Source: Aurantiacibacter gangjinensis (lineage in GTDB: Bacteria > Pseudomonadota > Alphaproteobacteria > Sphingomonadales > Sphingomonadaceae). Taken from it: a DNA stretch of 64,000 nt. The translations under genes and the position numbers were made by a program. The DNA lies in the NCBI RefSeq assembly GCF_001886695.1, contig NZ_CP018098.1, forward strand, positions 1-64,000, read 5' to 3'. The notes beneath the pieces are model-generated. The model was not told the DNA's origin. It saw nothing but the letters and a program-made list of their open reading frames with translations, and did no database searches. Below, piece after piece: positions 19,222 through 32,990 of the stretch; within the stretch, counting starts at the first letter, position 1; each line of letters begins with the position of its first letter.

Positions 19222-20025
19222 ATGAGCGAAATGGCACCCAAAAGACGCGGCTTTGTGCGCGGCTTGCTGATCGATCTGTCGGTGATGACTCTGATCGGCG
19301 TCGTGCTGGCACTGATCGGACCGTTCGGCAGCTTCAACGATCCCCTCGCCATACGATTGATCGTATGGGTCGGCTTCGCTTGGATCGGTTATGCGCTCTA
19401 TTCCCCGATAGACGCGGTGGCGCAGCGTCTGGCTCCCGCGCTCGATCTGCCGGTGTGGACATTGCGGCTGGCAGGCGTTCTCCTGTCCTCGATCCCGATG
19501 GCGGTCGTGGTGTGGGTCTTGCCGCGCGGTTTTGGAAGTCTGCAATGGCCGGGCGCCAGTGCGGCGCTGGAGCATTATCTCTACGTCGCCTTTATTGGCG
19601 GACTGATCACGGTGGTGAACAGCCTGTTCCAGAAAGGTGCGGCAGAGCCGCGCATCGTCACGCCGCCGCCTGTCCCCGACGAGCTGCGGCCGGAACACAG
19701 CCAGCCCGATCCGGCCAACCGCTTGATGGACAGGCTTTCCCCGGAGATGGGCGTGGACCTGATCGCACTGGAAATGGAAGACCATTACGTGCGCGCGCAC
19801 ACGGCGCTGGGCAGCGAACTGCTGCTGATGCGGATGCGCGACGCGGTGGCGGAACTGCATCCGGTGCAGGGCGAGCAGGTGCATCGCAGCTGGTGGGTGG
19901 CGCGCGGGGCGGTGGCCGATGTGAAGCGCGACGGGCGCAATATCCAGCTTGTGCTGGATAACGGGCTGGAAGCGCCCGTCAGCCGCGCGAATGTGCAGCG
20001 CCTCAAGGATGAAGGCTGGCTGTAA
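19222..20025 (+). CDS. Membrane-anchored LytTR-family transcriptional regulator
   Basis: The 267-residue protein has four N-terminal membrane segments (to about residue 140), a proline-rich linker, and a C-terminal LytTR DNA-binding domain: LIALEMEDHYVRAHT, then HRSWWVARGAV and ending ANVQRLKDEGWL. There is no receiver domain, so the membrane part probably senses the signal. ATG at 19222 with AGGA upstream is preferred to the TTG at 19213. It overlaps the convergent Pr6Pr gene by 23 bases. Confidence 0.9.
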   Translation: MSEMAPKRRGFVRGLLIDLSVMTLIGVVLALIGPFGSFNDPLAIRLIVWVGFAWIGYALYSPIDAVAQRLAPALDLPVWTLRLAGVLLSSIPMAVVVWVLPRGFGSLQWPGASAALEHYLYVAFIGGLITVVNSLFQKGAAEPRIVTPPPVPDELRPEHSQPDPANRLMDRLSPEMGVDLIALEMEDHYVRAHTALGSELLLMRMRDAVAELHPVQGEQVHRSWWVARGAVADVKRDGRNIQLVLDNGLEAPVSRANVQRLKDEGWL

Positions 20026-20644
20026 TCCCGCGCCGCCGCGCCAGCGCATTCTTTCCCGACACCAGCCCAGCGCCCACCAGAGCGAAGAACAGCGCCAGCA
20101 CGATATTGGCAATGATGAAGCCTGCTGCGCCTTGCGCGGGCAGGTCGAGGAAGAAGTAGGCGTAGAAACCGGTCAGCTCGCCATGCACGAATGCAAAGGC
20201 GCCATAGGCCAGCGGCGGCACCATGATGGCAGGCACGACCGACCAGACGCGCGGGTTCGGCGGCGTGAAGGCGAGCCACCAGGCGACAGTCGCCAGCGGC
20301 ACGAAGGTATGATGGAACTGGTTGGTGATGCGGTCCAGCCCGACCGGATCATGCGTCGCGGCAAGCAGGCCCCAATAGACGACGCCTACCACGGTGATGG
20401 CCGTAGTCAGCGCCGCCATCACCGCGCGCGGCGGTTGGCCGCCCAGCGCAATCCACGCCATGACGAGGCACGCGGCGACATTGCTCCAGATCGTGAAGTA
20501 GCGCAGCATCGCTCCAAGGTTCTGCAGTATCGAGCCGTCCCCCAGCGTCGTCTGCACGGCCAGCGCGGCAAATGCGCATAGCGCAATGATCGCCGCAAGC
20601 ACGCGCGCACGCGGTGTCGGTCTGGTGTTTCCACTATTCGGCAT
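20003..20644 (-). CDS. Pr6Pr-family membrane protein
   Basis: The 213-residue protein has six evenly spaced membrane segments and the motifs YFTIWSNVAA, HHTFVPLATVAWWLAF and YAYFFLDL, which match the Pr6Pr (FAR-17a/AIG1-like) membrane family. Function in bacteria is not established. The start at 20644 is chosen because the upstream part of the longer reading lies over the katG terminator. Confidence 0.87.
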   Translation of the reverse strand: MPNSGNTRPTPRARVLAAIIALCAFAALAVQTTLGDGSILQNLGAMLRYFTIWSNVAACLVMAWIALGGQPPRAVMAALTTAITVVGVVYWGLLAATHDPVGLDRITNQFHHTFVPLATVAWWLAFTPPNPRVWSVVPAIMVPPLAYGAFAFVHGELTGFYAYFFLDLPAQGAAGFIIANIVLALFFALVGAGLVSGKNALARRRGITASLHP

Positions 20645-29306: not shown

Positions 29307-29909
29307 ATGATTGCGAAGCTGACGGGTAAACTAGACGAAACCGGCAATGACTGGGCGGTGATCGACGTCGCCGGTGTCGGCTACCTCGTCCACTGCTCGG
29401 CCAAGACGCTCACCGCGCTGGGCGAAACCGGCGCGGATTGCACCGTCTTCACCGATCTGCAGGTGAGCGAGAACGACATGCGCCTGCTGGGCTTTGCCGA
29501 AGCCGGAGAGCGCGACTGGTTCCGCCTGCTGACACAGGTGCAGGGCGTGGGCAGCAAGGTGGCACTGGCAATCCTCTCGGCGCTCTCGACCGACGAACTG
29601 CGCGATGCCTGCGCTGCGGGCGACGCCGCCAGCGTGTCGCGCGCCAATGGCGTAGGGCCGAAACTGGCAGGCCGCATCGTCAATGAGCTTGCGGAGAAGG
29701 CAGGCGCGATGCCGGGCAGCGGCACGGCAGGCGCGGCGCGCATCTCGCCCGTAGGCGGCGCCAGCGCCGATGCCGTCAGCGCTTTGCAGAACTTGGGTTT
29801 CAAATGCGCCGTGGCCGCGCAGGCGGTGGCAAGGGCGCAGGAAGAACTGGGCGAAGGCGCGGGCGAAGGTGACCTGATCCGCGTGGCGCTGAAGAAGGCG
29901 GCGGGGTGA
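29307..29909 (+). CDS. ruvA: Holliday junction branch migration complex subunit RuvA
   Basis: RuvA binds Holliday junctions as a tetramer and positions RuvB. The 200-residue protein starts [13 protein letters not shown] and has two helix-hairpin-helix motifs, [15 protein letters not shown] and [15 protein letters not shown], then the flexible linker and a C-terminal RuvB-binding domain ([11 protein letters not shown]). No ruvC was seen upstream. Its partner ruvB begins 502 bases later; the gap holds a GIY-YIG gene and palindromic repeats. Confidence 0.97.
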
Positions 29910-29930
29910 TGAGTCATTCTTACTACTGTC

Positions 29931-29951
29931 ATCCTGAACTTGTTTCAGGAT
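29931..29951 (+). repeat. Family A palindrome, left copy
   Basis: The arms ATCCTGAA and TTCAGGAT pair perfectly around the loop CTTGT. It lies 21 bases past the ruvA stop and 11 bases past the end of the GIY-YIG gene. Confidence 0.85.
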
Positions 29952-29962
29952 CGATTAGGCCG

Positions 29963-30280
29963 TCAGCGCGTAGCGAGTGGCGGCAGACCAAGCCCGACTG
30001 CAAGGTCGTGCCAATCCGGGTTCTCGCTCTGGATCAGGTTGATCTTCCACGGCCGATGCCTGCGTTTCAGCTGCTTCTCGCGCGCAATGGCCGCATCCAT
30101 CGTGGCAAACTGTTCGTACCGAACGAGGGTGCCGACACCATAGCGCGATGTGAAGCCGTTCACTTCCCTGCTGCGATGCTGCCAGAGGCGCGTCATCAAG
30201 TCGCTCGTGACGCCGATGTAAAGAGTGCCGTGGGGCTTGCTGGCGAGAATGTAGACACAAGGTTGACGCTCTCTGGGCAT
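29963..30280 (-). CDS. GIY-YIG domain nuclease-like protein
   Basis: The 105-residue protein is essentially a single GIY-YIG domain: CVYILAS (8-14), LYIGVTSDLMTR (20-31), a conserved QH at 34-35, FTSRYGVGTLVRYE, and the metal-binding glutamate in AIAREKQLKRR (Glu68). It belongs to the small UPF0213-like group. Members of this fold cut DNA, but this group's activity is mostly untested. The start at 30280 (MPRERQP) is chosen because the alternative TTG at 30316 lies inside a palindromic repeat; no clear ribosome site was seen. It sits on the strand opposite ruvA and ruvB. Confidence 0.9.
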   Translation of the reverse strand: MPRERQPCVYILASKPHGTLYIGVTSDLMTRLWQHRSREVNGFTSRYGVGTLVRYEQFATMDAAIAREKQLKRRHRPWKINLIQSENPDWHDLAVGLGLPPLATR

Positions 30281-30304
30281 GGGTTGGAGCGTGACGAAGG
30301 ATGG

Positions 30305-30325
30305 ACCCTGAAACAAGTTCAGGGT
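30305..30325 (-). repeat. Family A palindrome, right copy, inverted
   Basis: The arms ACCCTGAA and TTCAGGGT pair perfectly around ACAAG, the reverse complement of the CTTGT loop of the left copy. It lies 25 bases upstream of the GIY-YIG start. Compared with the left copy, a stem pair changed on both sides. Confidence 0.85.
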
Positions 30326-30359
30326 GACGAGAACTCAAAAATGGTCGCTTCTTTTCGTC

Positions 30360-30380
30360 ATGCTGAACTTGTTTCAGCAT
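30360..30380 (+). repeat. Family A palindrome, third copy
   Basis: The arms ATGCTGAA and TTCAGCAT pair perfectly around CTTGT, in the same orientation as the left copy. It lies 32 bases before the ruvB start. Another compensating stem-pair change is seen. Confidence 0.85.
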
Positions 30381-30411
30381 CCATTTCGGTAGACGGGCAG
30401 GCCCATCAGCC

Positions 30412-31446
30412 ATGACCGAACCCATCCACTCCCCCGATCGTCTGCCGGACGATCCCGACGCGGCGCTGCGCCCAAAAACGCTGGCCGAATTCGTCGGGCA
30501 GGAGGCAGCACGGGACAACCTTCGCGTCTTCATCGAGGCTGCCAAGGGCCGGTCCGAGGCGATGGACCATACGCTGTTCTTCGGCCCGCCGGGCCTCGGC
30601 AAGACCACGCTGGCGCAGATCATCGCCAGGGAGCTCGGTGTCGGCTTCCGCGCCACATCCGGCCCGGTGATCGCCAAGGCGGGCGACCTCGCCGCGCTGC
30701 TCACCAATCTCGAGCCCAACGACGTGCTCTTCATCGACGAGATCCACCGCCTCAATCCGGTGGTGGAAGAAGTGCTCTATCCCGCCATGGAGGACCGCGC
30801 GCTCGATATCATCATCGGCGAGGGGCCGTCGGCGCGCAGCGTGCGGATCGACTTGCCGCCCTTCACGCTGGTTGGCGCGACCACGCGCCAAGGGCTGCTC
30901 ACCACGCCGCTGCGCGACCGCTTCGGCATTCCGGTGCGGCTGGTGTTCTATACCGAGGACGAGTTGATGCGCGTCGTCACCCGCGGGGCTGGTCTTCTGG
31001 GCATGGACATTGCCGAGGAAGGCGCGCGCGAGATTGCACGCCGCAGCCGGGGCACGCCGCGCGTTGCGGGCCGCCTGCTGCGCCGGGTACGCGACTTTGC
31101 GCAAGTGAAAGGTCAGGGCACGGTCACCGCGCCGATTGCAGACGAGGCGCTGACGCGGCTGGAGATCGACCAGCTGGGCCTCGATGCGATGGACAGGCGC
31201 TATCTCACAATGATCGCGACGACATATAAAGGCGGCCCGGTGGGCGTTGAAACGCTGGCCGCCGGCCTCGCCGAGCCGCGCGATACGGTGGAGGAGGTGA
31301 TCGAGCCTTACCTCATCCAGCTGGGGCTTCTGGCTCGCACCGCGCGCGGGCGGTGCCTCAACGATGGCGGCTGGCGCCATCTGGGAATCACCCCGCCGTC
31401 GCAACAGGGCAACGGGCAGGAAGGTTTGTTCCGCGACCCGGAATAG
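30412..31446 (+). CDS. ruvB: Holliday junction branch migration ATPase RuvB
   Basis: RuvB is the hexameric AAA+ motor that drives branch migration with RuvA. The 344-residue protein has [14 protein letters not shown] (Walker A, about 57-70), [10 protein letters not shown] (Walker B), [18 protein letters not shown] (sensor 1 and arginine finger region) and the C-terminal winged helix with [19 protein letters not shown]. The start at 30412 matches the family N-terminus. Confidence 0.98.
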
Positions 31447-31679: not shown

Positions 31680-32990
31680 ATGTCTGTACGGATGGCCATT
31701 GCGAAACTGACTGCCGCAGCTGCCGGGGGCGCAGTTGTGGGCGGGGGCGCGGTCCACGTCGCCGAGCCGCAGTCGGCAGAGGTTCGCTATAAGACGGACG
31801 AAGACGCCGCAGCCGAAGGCGGGCTGACCTATATCAAGGATGAAGGCGAGACGACCGCGCGCCGCGCGATCCCGCCGCGTCCGCGAGAACAGCGCCGCCT
31901 GCGCCGTACGATCGAAACCGAGTGCTGCGAGGAAGAATACATGGCAATGGGCGCGCCCTTGCCTCTGCCCCCGCTCCCCAGCGCACCTGTGCCCGGCGGC
32001 GGTGGCGGTCAGCCGGTGATTGTCGGCGGCACGTCCGGCGGCGGTTTCGGCGGCGGCTTCTTCGGCGGGTTCTTCGGCGGCTCTGGCGGCGGCGGCAGCG
32101 CCGTGGTCGACATGAGCACCACGACGACCACCGGCGGCGACGGCGACGGCGGCGGCGACATCATTATCGATATCGACAATGACAATTCCAGCACCGGATC
32201 GTCCACATCGACCTCGGGCGGTTCGACCTCGACTTCGGGCGGATCGACGTCCACCAGCACTGGCGGCGTCACCAGCACCACGTCGTCGAGCACGGGTGGC
32301 GTAACCAGCACGACGGGCGGCTCGTCCACCAGCACGGGCGGTGTGAGCACCACGACCGGCGGCGTCACCAGTACCACTGGCGGCGTGACGAGCACGACCG
32401 GCGGGTCCTCGACTTCGACATCCAGCGGCGGCTCTTCGGGCAATGTCTCCAGCTCTACGGGCGGCTCCTCCAGCTCGACCAGTTCCGGCAGCGTCACCAG
32501 CACCAGCAGCACGGGCGGGTCTTCGACGTCCACCAGCTCCGGCACGGTAACCAGCACTTCATCTTCCGGCACAGTCACCGGCACGTCTTCGACATCGGGC
32601 GACGTTTCCTCGTCTTCGGGCACTGTGACCAGCACCTCGTCCACTTCGGGCGATGTGACGTCGAGCTCTTCGGGCAACGTGACGAGCAGCTCGTCCACCT
32701 CGACAAGCGGGAACGTGTCGACCAGCACGTCGACGTCGACCTCGGGCAATGTTTCGAGCAACACCTCTTCGTCGACCAGCACCTCGTCCAGCACGAGCAC
32801 GTCGACCTCGTCCTCCACGAGCAGCTCGACCAGCACCAGCTCGTCGGGCGGCACAACCAATGGCGGCACGACTTCGGGAACGCAGGTGCCGGCTCCGGGT
32901 ATGTTGGTGCTGTTCGGCGCGGCAGCGGGCGCGGTATTCTGGCGCCGTCGCCGCAAGGATGGCGTGAAGGGCCGCGCGGTCCACGCCTGA
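31680..32990 (+). CDS. Ser/Thr-rich low-complexity exported protein with PEP-CTERM-like C-terminus
   Basis: The 436-residue protein has an N-terminal Ala/Gly-rich hydrophobic segment (about 6-28) that could be a signal peptide, a charged region, a proline stretch, a Gly/Phe-rich block (about 106-140), an acidic block, then about 230 residues of almost pure Ser, Thr, Gly and Val (170-402). It ends VPAPGMLVLFG, a hydrophobic stretch, and RRRR, the layout of a PEP-CTERM sorting signal. PEP-CTERM proteins are processed by an exosortase and are often glycosylated; the Ser/Thr region fits this. No exosortase gene is in the window. An intrinsic terminator follows. Confidence 0.85.
   Translation: MSVRMAIAKLTAAAAGGAVVGGGAVHVAEPQSAEVRYKTDEDAAAEGGLTYIKDEGETTARRAIPPRPREQRRLRRTIETECCEEEYMAMGAPLPLPPLPSAPVPGGGGGQPVIVGGTSGGGFGGGFFGGFFGGSGGGGSAVVDMSTTTTTGGDGDGGGDIIIDIDNDNSSTGSSTSTSGGSTSTSGGSTSTSTGGVTSTTSSSTGGVTSTTGGSSTSTGGVSTTTGGVTSTTGGVTSTTGGSSTSTSSGGSSGNVSSSTGGSSSSTSSGSVTSTSSTGGSSTSTSSGTVTSTSSSGTVTGTSSTSGDVSSSSGTVTSTSSTSGDVTSSSSGNVTSSSSTSTSGNVSTSTSTSTSGNVSSNTSSSTSTSSSTSTSTSSSTSSSTSTSSSGGTTNGGTTSGTQVPAPGMLVLFGAAAGAVFWRRRRKDGVKGRAVHA
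32187..32885 (+). repeat. Low-complexity Ser/Thr-coding repeat tract
   Basis: The tract is built from imperfect repeats of codons for Ser, Thr, Gly and Val (units such as GGVTSTT, TSTSSG and SGNVTSS). It lies within the PEP-CTERM-like gene and could change length by slippage or recombination. The reverse strand is also open but is a shadow. Confidence 0.8.

Follow-up and report, generated by a model that had tools for sequence, protein, structure and literature searches.

A short GIY-YIG nuclease gene that separates ruvA from ruvB in Aurantiacibacter gangjinensis is enclosed by an inverted pair of tagged palindromes of the REP type, and its relatives are enclosed by such pairs far more often than displaced stretches of DNA are. 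From the sequence comparisons presented here, the GIY-YIG enzyme is a strong candidate for the spreader of a class of palindromes that has had no known enzyme. The pairing of REPs and GIY-YIG nucleases is strongly supported by the sequences. It is documented below through flanking, orientation, agreement of REP type on the two sides of the gene, clustering of REP type with nuclease lineage, co-occurrence across genomes and purifying selection on the gene. We put the probability that this nuclease serves REPs of its own type as a dedicated partner, in a unit resembling the REPtrons, at roughly two in three (0.65). By analogy with those systems, we infer that the nuclease would also cause, or catalyze, the spread of the REPs.

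Results

An inverted REP pair around a nuclease gene in the ruvAB interval

The window, that is, the whole stretch of 64,000 nucleotides that was analyzed, contains the arrangement listed in Table 1. An earlier note on this DNA, written from the sequence alone, had described a GIY-YIG gene for 105 residues that separates ruvA from ruvB and runs against them, together with one palindrome on each side in inverted orientation and a third copy outside; all of this was borne out, and the distances that it gave between palindromes and gene proved correct to within a few bases. REP 1 lies past the 3' end of the nuclease gene and REP 2 upstream of its start, both with the tag facing outward, and together they form an inverted pair around a gene located in intergenic DNA. 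REP 3 is an additional copy immediately upstream of ruvB.

Table 1. Features of the ruvA-ruvB interval (window coordinates).
Feature	Position	Strand	Remarks
ruvA (Holliday junction helicase subunit)	29307..29909	+	200-aa ORF
REP 1, TGTC-ATCCTGAA-CTTGT-TTCAGGAT-CGA	29927..29954	+	core match; hairpin -6.3 kcal/mol
GIY-YIG nuclease gene, 105 aa	29963..30280	-	Pfam PF01541
REP 2, CGTC-ACCCTGAA-CTTGT-TTCAGGGT-CCA (minus strand)	30302..30329	-	core match; hairpin -7.1 kcal/mol
REP 3, CGTC-ATGCTGAA-CTTGT-TTCAGCAT-CCA	30356..30383	+	core match; hairpin -6.7 kcal/mol
ruvB (Holliday junction motor subunit)	30412..31446	+	344-aa ORF

The palindrome core, CTGAACTTGTTTCAG, occurs at 29934(+), 30308(-) and 30363(+) and nowhere else in the window with up to two mismatches. 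Three matches compare with 0.04 expected from shuffled sequence, and none of 100 shuffles reached this number. In our own full parse, a REP consists of a 4-base tag, an 8-bp stem enclosing a 5-base loop, and a 3-base tail; read from the outer side inward, the window REPs have CGTC or TGTC as tag, CTTGT as loop and, except for CGA in REP 1, CCA as tail. Folded as DNA hairpins, all three are more stable than shuffled versions (z -3.8 to -4.4). The core is a genome-wide repeat, found with at most one mismatch at 15 places of the 2.72-Mb genome, in which a reversed control pattern has no match, and at all five other genome sites that were read an inverted partner (up to two mismatches) lies 54-63 bp away.

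These palindromes conform to the CGTC-tagged REPs described by Di Nocera, De Gregorio and Rocco (2013; PMC3733652). The passages of that paper that define the class give a CGTC or TGTC tag, a stem of 8-9 bp, a loop of 4-5 bases and a CCA tail, and describe mainly inverted (HH) dimers, mostly in Alphaproteobacteria but also in Neisseria and others; the window REPs agree in tags, 8-bp stem, 5-base loop, tails (apart from the CGA of REP 1) and inverted pairing. According to its passages on transposase genes, which do not deal with other nucleases, CGTC-tagged REPs "apparently lack a dedicated transposase", and one of the two REP superfamilies described in 2013 was thus left without an enzyme (PMC3733652). 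What departs from the account in these passages is the GIY-YIG gene inside inverted CGTC-REP pairs.

By reading, all six short GIY-YIG genes of the window's genome are flanked by inverted palindromes, which fall into five types, while the 160 bases preceding the open frame of the UvrC gene in the same genome contain no tagged palindrome. At one of the six places (L010; contig 1, near 317,600), GTCATCGCGAG...CGGCGATCCATGG repeats were seen by eye in several copies on either side of the GIY-YIG gene. Downstream of ruvB, the window holds a 436-aa ORF rich in Gly, Ser and Thr (31680-32990, plus strand), with VPAPGMLVLFGAAAGAVFWRRRR near its end, which we take to resemble a PEP-CTERM sorting tail.

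A small GIY-YIG protein under purifying selection

PF01541 (GIY-YIG) is the sole Pfam family found on the 105-aa protein (52.2 bits; cut-off 22.6), and the same search detected no HUH tyrosine transposase domain of the IS200/IS605-like kind. No NCBIfam model matches the protein, and membership in a named NCBIfam family was therefore rejected. Likewise, identities as a phage gene or as a defence gene were dismissed given that no PHROGs and no PADLOC family, respectively, matched at E<=0.001. Across 30 aligned sequences, Y10, G23, R31, H35, E68 and N87 are invariant and Y21 is conserved in at least 90%; we take the two conserved tyrosines, the arginine, the glutamate and the asparagine to correspond to the active-site residues of I-TevI and UvrC.

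An AlphaFold2 model of the protein (pLDDT 91.5, pTM 0.85) had UPF0213, Slx1-Slx4 and the UvrC N-domain as its nearest solved folds in Foldseek, with weak E-values (best 1.6e-3), and a sequence profile search at E<=0.01 returned two UPF0213 proteins only, 1zg2 at 1.4e-7. The nuclease thus shares the GIY-YIG fold with UPF0213 (1zg2, 1ywl), Slx1 (6sei, 7cq2-7cq4) and the UvrC N-domain (1yd6); however, none of these is linked to REP pairs in the fold and profile outputs, whereas the window nuclease lies in one. The gene is under purifying selection, with dN/dS of 0.10-0.21 in six of seven same-genus orthologues at ruvAB (the seventh is saturated), values that are rough because dS is high.

REPs flank the nuclease gene across relatives

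A relative of the nuclease is present at E<=1e-5 in 70 of 99 same-family genomes, many of which carry several. From the matches listed we used 115 loci, of which 6 belong to the window's genome, 29 are the best places in other genomes and 80 are additional ones. This set leans toward better-conserved genes, since stop-containing, short and lowest-scoring places were mostly omitted. A strict detector, which demands a GTC tag and a palindrome with at most one mismatch, placed REPs on both sides of the gene at 59 of the 115 loci, on one side at 26 and on neither at 30. The corresponding numbers for 1,015 displaced windows, obtained from 35 longer loci, were 1, 38 and 976; these windows are often coding DNA and hence an imperfect control for intergenic position. 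The adjacency of palindrome and GIY-YIG gene, which the earlier note had put forward as a check in related genomes, is thereby confirmed.

Orientation is equally consistent. When tags within 60 bp of the gene are considered, they face outward on both sides at 48 loci, inward on both at one, and are mixed at four and two. Loose type labels, with one mismatch allowed, find at least one REP at 107 of the 115 loci and REPs on both sides at 87, the displaced control covering the strict detector only. The eight loci without a labelled REP include two from the window's genome (L009 and L010) that bear other palindromes. Among 88 distinct nuclease-flanking REPs, the tag is CGTC in 66 and TGTC in 12 and the tail is CCA in 57, a tally in which tag and pairing arise partly by construction, as the detector demanded GTC and a near-perfect palindrome. 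As with RAYT genes in REPtrons, REPs of the gene's own type stand on either side of it in inverted orientation.

REP type follows nuclease lineage

The REP types to the left and right of the gene agree at 81 of 87 loci, compared to a mean of 15 and a maximum of 27 in 2,000 shuffles. On a tree of 115 nuclease proteins, built from few columns and with many unresolved forks, REP type changes 26 times, versus 63.6 times when shuffled, and none of 200 shuffles was as low; as these 26 changes imply, REP type and nuclease clade do not correspond one to one. A change of type can be seen at the same ruvA-ruvB place in another genome (L066), where the nuclease is 77% identical and both REPs are CCGGACTTGATCCGG instead of CTGAACTTGTTTCAG. 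Within the stem, the two bases of a pair vary together: position 6 of 46 REPs with a 4-base loop is C-G in 20, A-T in 13, T-A in 8 and G-C in 5, with pairing partly required by the detector.

Palindrome copies and nuclease homologues co-occur

At least two copies of CTGAACTYGTTTCAG are present in all 22 genomes with a homologue at E<=1e-35 and in 24 of the 77 others (Fisher 1.4e-9), and over the 99 same-family genomes CTGAACTYGTTTCAG copies and homologue correlate with a Spearman coefficient of 0.64; both the counts and this statistic ignore kinship. The co-occurrence that the earlier note had proposed to look for is therefore found. It had also held that palindromes equally common in genomes without the gene would count against a partnership, and this is not what the family sample contains; yet the palindromes do occur in some genomes that lack a close homologue. 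Four of the 29 genomes without a homologue at E<=1e-5 hold at least two CTGAACTYGTTTCAG copies (maximum 16), and two of 30 with a homologue at E<=1e-33 have no CTGAACTYGTTTCAG at all. For class C, co-occurrence is seen in 10/10 versus 20/89 genomes and is partly circular, given that the count includes the flanking REPs themselves.

One genome, G066, has 213 REP copies, compared to 22, 9, 8 and 8 in four congeners, and one nuclease homologue among the matches listed. We read this copy number as a lineage-specific burst and count it as support for mobilization. Two REP pairs of G066 are clearly absent at the orthologous site in the two congeners in which both flanks were found, a comparison that lacks base precision because the flanks are only ~70-89% alike. 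Short REP pairs are tightly spaced in G069 (62-64 bp apart in 14 of 14 pairs read by eye, with related spacers in several of ten pairs examined), but such spacing is not general, as the pairs of G050 lie 60-146 bp apart. On contig 8 of G066 there is another intergenic repeat, CGCAGAGGCGCAGAGGC... (L254:15745-15891), which four congeners lack at the corresponding position.

The association extends beyond the family and to a second nuclease clade

The 80 best relatives in a named collection come from Alpha-, Beta-, Gamma-, Delta- and Zetaproteobacteria, Nitrospira and several other groups, with many metagenome bins among them. An inverted repeat with a score of at least 14 spans the gene at 57 of these 80 loci and in one of 290 displaced windows. 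GTC or GAC is found within the repeat at 52 of the 57, so that a few of the repeats may not be REPs. When flanks of different loci were swapped, 36 of 240 pairs also scored at least 14, since REP types are common to several loci.

Eight loci came from a plasmid collection. CGTC-type REPs accompany the gene in Neisseria gonorrhoeae, Azospirillum lipoferum, Aeromonas caviae and Novosphingobium; Sinorhizobium has its own palindrome type; Planktothrix and Spirosoma have GTCAT-type repeats; and no inverted repeat surrounds the gene at the Photobacterium locus. On the A. lipoferum plasmid AZO_p3 (L157), the REP-flanked GIY-YIG gene parts sufB from sufC and hence splits another operon. The gene on the Planktothrix agardhii plasmid (L159) is located between a type IIL restriction-modification gene and DISARM drmA. 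On a plasmid of Sphingobium sp. TomTYG73 (L289, ~20001-20254), the GIY-YIG match is in two pieces with no annotated gene, while three sister plasmids have one, which suggests gene decay.

A second clade of GIY-YIG genes has a palindrome of its own. Its representative in the window's genome (L009; contig 1, ~312,293-312,633) lies in an inverted CCTGAGCYTGTCGAAGG pair, and in the best 30 of 33 genomes with this clade an inverted repeat scoring at least 14 encloses the gene at 23 of 30 loci, versus none of 120 displaced windows; a simple pattern for the CCTGAGCYTGTCGAAGG core matches at 18 of these 23. Three or more CCTGAGCYTGTCGAAGG copies occur in 24 of 33 genomes with the L009 clade (E<=1e-15) and in 20 of 66 without it (P 9e-5). 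Two genomes, G061 and G054, hold 71 and 62 copies, respectively, with no nuclease of this clade at E<=1e-15. The window's genome has 52 exact copies, and eight of nine short pairs, read by eye, are 58-60 bp apart.

Multi-copy units with shared internal deletions

Miniature inverted-repeat elements (MITEs) and internal-deletion derivatives of insertion sequences carry common ends and common internal deletions at several places. The same pattern, several copies with common ends and internal deletions, is found in one genome, G071, in which nine alignable REP-gene-REP units of the CCGGGCTTGACCCGG type occupy nine places. Five of the units, including one with a single-base gap, are full-length. 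A 47-bp internal deletion is common to two others (L321 and L322), which are identical over 332 bp; in a further two (L323 and L324), with 4 differences in 242 bp, the same stretch of ~137 bp is missing. Both deletions lie inside the gene. If a non-autonomous unit was mobilized in trans, REP-enclosed DNA whose gene is defective should turn up at two or more sites, as it does here. The G071 units differ from MITEs in that no target-site duplication was seen, that their hairpin ends carry a one-sided tag and that the enzyme stands outside the known transposase classes.

All nine units lie inside a further, degenerate intergenic repeat. Matches between their flanks extend over ~20-110 bp (the best up to 112 bp on the left and up to 100 bp on the right), mostly at 73-95% identity, which is lower than that of the units. 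Parts of the outer repeat also exist without a unit, as right halves (L350, L353) or as a degenerate copy with another hairpin inside (L354); a fourth part (L359) adjoins a unit. This leaves the exact ends of the G071 units uncertain, and the deletions could also have been spread by gene conversion among old copies, which have this outer repeat in common.

Neither an empty site resolved to the base nor a target duplication was found among the congeners of G066, in Sinorhizobium, on the Sphingobium plasmids or in searches with the G071 outer repeat, of which three genomes contain no copy with a gap of 2-32 bases. On pSymB, S. meliloti 1021 and S. medicae carry a REP pair that four other Sinorhizobium records lack, and the alternative sequence is no clean excision. 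The Sphingobium plasmids have two presence/absence differences for REP pairs, each with extra differences in the flanks. In G069, 4 of 10 REP pairs (L333, L334, L335, L339) were read within an outer repeat of the GCGGAC...GTCCGC type, like the one around the units of G071, which suggests that other intergenic repeats may be preferred landing places.

The ruvAB site is probably an old place of residence

A search with RuvA gave a match in 38 of 40 genomes of the genus. At 30 same-genus ruvA loci, a GIY-YIG gene lies downstream of ruvA in 8 and none within the stretch examined in 22; ruvB was in view at 28 of the 30 and out of view at one that has the nuclease gene (L047). The earlier note had held that fixation of the gene at this place in all relatives would count against its reading, and the gene is not fixed here. 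Mostly other ORFs occupy the place at these 22 loci; at one (L059) ruvA and ruvB are 2 bp apart. Comparing the spacing of ruvA and ruvB, as the note had advised, consequently yields gene-free loci but no clean empty site, because the gap elsewhere is mostly filled by other ORFs.

Considering the best locus per genome (the best 30 of 70 genomes, window included; tblastn), 12 lie beside ruvA, 11 of them also with ruvB, and the remaining 18 show neither gene. With 12 of 30 best loci beside ruvA, an old and repeatedly lost residence accounts for the pattern better than a recent jump, and from these sequences the nuclease gene at ruvAB is probably an old resident that has often been lost. The view of ruvAB as an insertion site accordingly holds in part: the gene is there in some same-genus genomes and not seen in others, but it does not look like the product of a recent jump. 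In most close homologues the type A gene has kept its place at ruvAB, so that the unit rarely moves, a point against the proposed mobilization.

Discussion

REPs are abundant in many bacterial genomes. In the REPtrons, REPs are combined with RAYT (TnpAREP) genes. The descriptions of REPtrons by Bertels and Rainey (2011; PMC3116915) and Corneloup (2021; PMC8266576), as far as their relevant passages go, have several counterparts in our data: a nuclease gene with REPs of its own type, inverted doublets as miniature elements, and co-evolution of enzyme and REP. Two features set the window's unit apart from the REPtrons of these passages, namely a GIY-YIG fold in place of the HUH tyrosine transposase, and CGTC/TGTC tags in place of GTAG. 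Among the matches listed in a search of open-access PubMed Central (preprints not included), no paper linked GIY-YIG genes to REPs or to these palindromes, and in the main text of a 2025 REP survey (PMC12306157) no word begins with 'GIY', 'nuclease' or 'RAYT'. If the nuclease does spread REPs, this process would have evolved at least twice, with unrelated nucleases; a widespread unnamed protein, which has relatives in most genomes of the family sample (70/99 at E<=1e-5) and no NCBIfam model, would obtain a function; and the long-standing gap left by the missing enzyme could be addressed by experiments on a 105-residue protein and a 28-base oligonucleotide.

We propose that the unit consists of a CGTC-REP, a GIY-YIG gene and an inverted CGTC-REP, with the tags facing outward. 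The nuclease would recognize the folded REP through tag and hairpin and, as we infer from the REPtron analogy, cut at or beside it (at the tag or the base of the stem) when it forms a hairpin, a cruciform or another branched structure. Such cleavage could start the copying or moving of the REP pair, together with the DNA between, to further intergenic positions. The short pairs of REPs, often ~60 bp apart and more variable in some genomes, would then be the non-autonomous form, served in trans. The wider proposal is that short GIY-YIG nucleases mobilize CGTC-tagged REPs, with a sister clade serving CCTGAGCYTGTCGAAGG, and that GIY-YIG-based transposition exists independently of RAYTs in several phyla, its specificities co-evolving with the REPs by paired stem changes; we lean toward this proposal by a narrow margin. 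Of the partnership that the earlier note had suspected, with a nuclease of a different fold in the RAYT role, the association stands on flanking, on the matching of REP types with each other and with the tree, and on co-occurrence with copy number, whereas a mobilizing role is the most likely reading, supported by the deletion forms of G071 and the burst of copies in G066.

GIY-YIG homing endonucleases are well established, and a selfish gene of this kind might have landed in existing REP pairs, cutting gene-less pairs and being copied into them by repair, while the REPs spread by other means. Flanking, cognate matching and co-occurrence would follow about equally well from such hitch-hiking, and the genomes that carry REPs without the gene fit it too. 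We nevertheless consider it unlikely. REPs far outnumber cognate genes in several genomes, as G066 illustrates with its 213 REPs and one homologue among the matches listed, and the broken-gene forms of G071 that share a deletion at two places each require movement, or gene conversion, of REP-bounded DNA in which the gene is dead. It is these deletion forms and the bracketed multi-copy units that favor mobilization by the nuclease.

The proximity to genes for Holliday junction processing raises the question of whether the nuclease could trim or resolve REP cruciforms in the manner of Slx1 and be kept for limiting damage, with the REPs being its substrate and not its progeny. Slx1, a nuclease of branched DNA, is among the nearest folds, the gene is under purifying selection, and residence beside ruvA and ruvB is long in 12 of the 30 best loci. 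Still, this location is not general, given that the other 18 best loci show neither ruvA nor ruvB and the Azospirillum gene lies between sufB and sufC, and a housekeeping role leaves the inverted bracket of own-type REPs and the multi-copy deletion forms unexplained. We regard it as improbable.

Mobilization by another enzyme, a RAYT or other HUH transposase, with the GIY-YIG gene as mere cargo, appears more improbable still. HUH enzymes do process cognate single-stranded REPs in vitro, as the relevant part of PMC8266576 reports, but the CGTC-bearing species examined in PMC3733652 had, according to its passages on transposases, no tyrosine transposase gene flanked by CGTC repeats. Moreover, a passenger gene should neither follow REP type from lineage to lineage nor do so in a second nuclease clade. 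Finally, intergenic palindromes are common, and REPs, being mostly intergenic by the account in PMC3733652, will flank some intergenic genes by accident; we rejected chance as the explanation, and give it next to no weight, on the grounds of the displaced-window controls (59/115, 57/80 and 23/30 loci versus 1/1,015, 1/290 and 0/120 displaced windows, the latter often coding).
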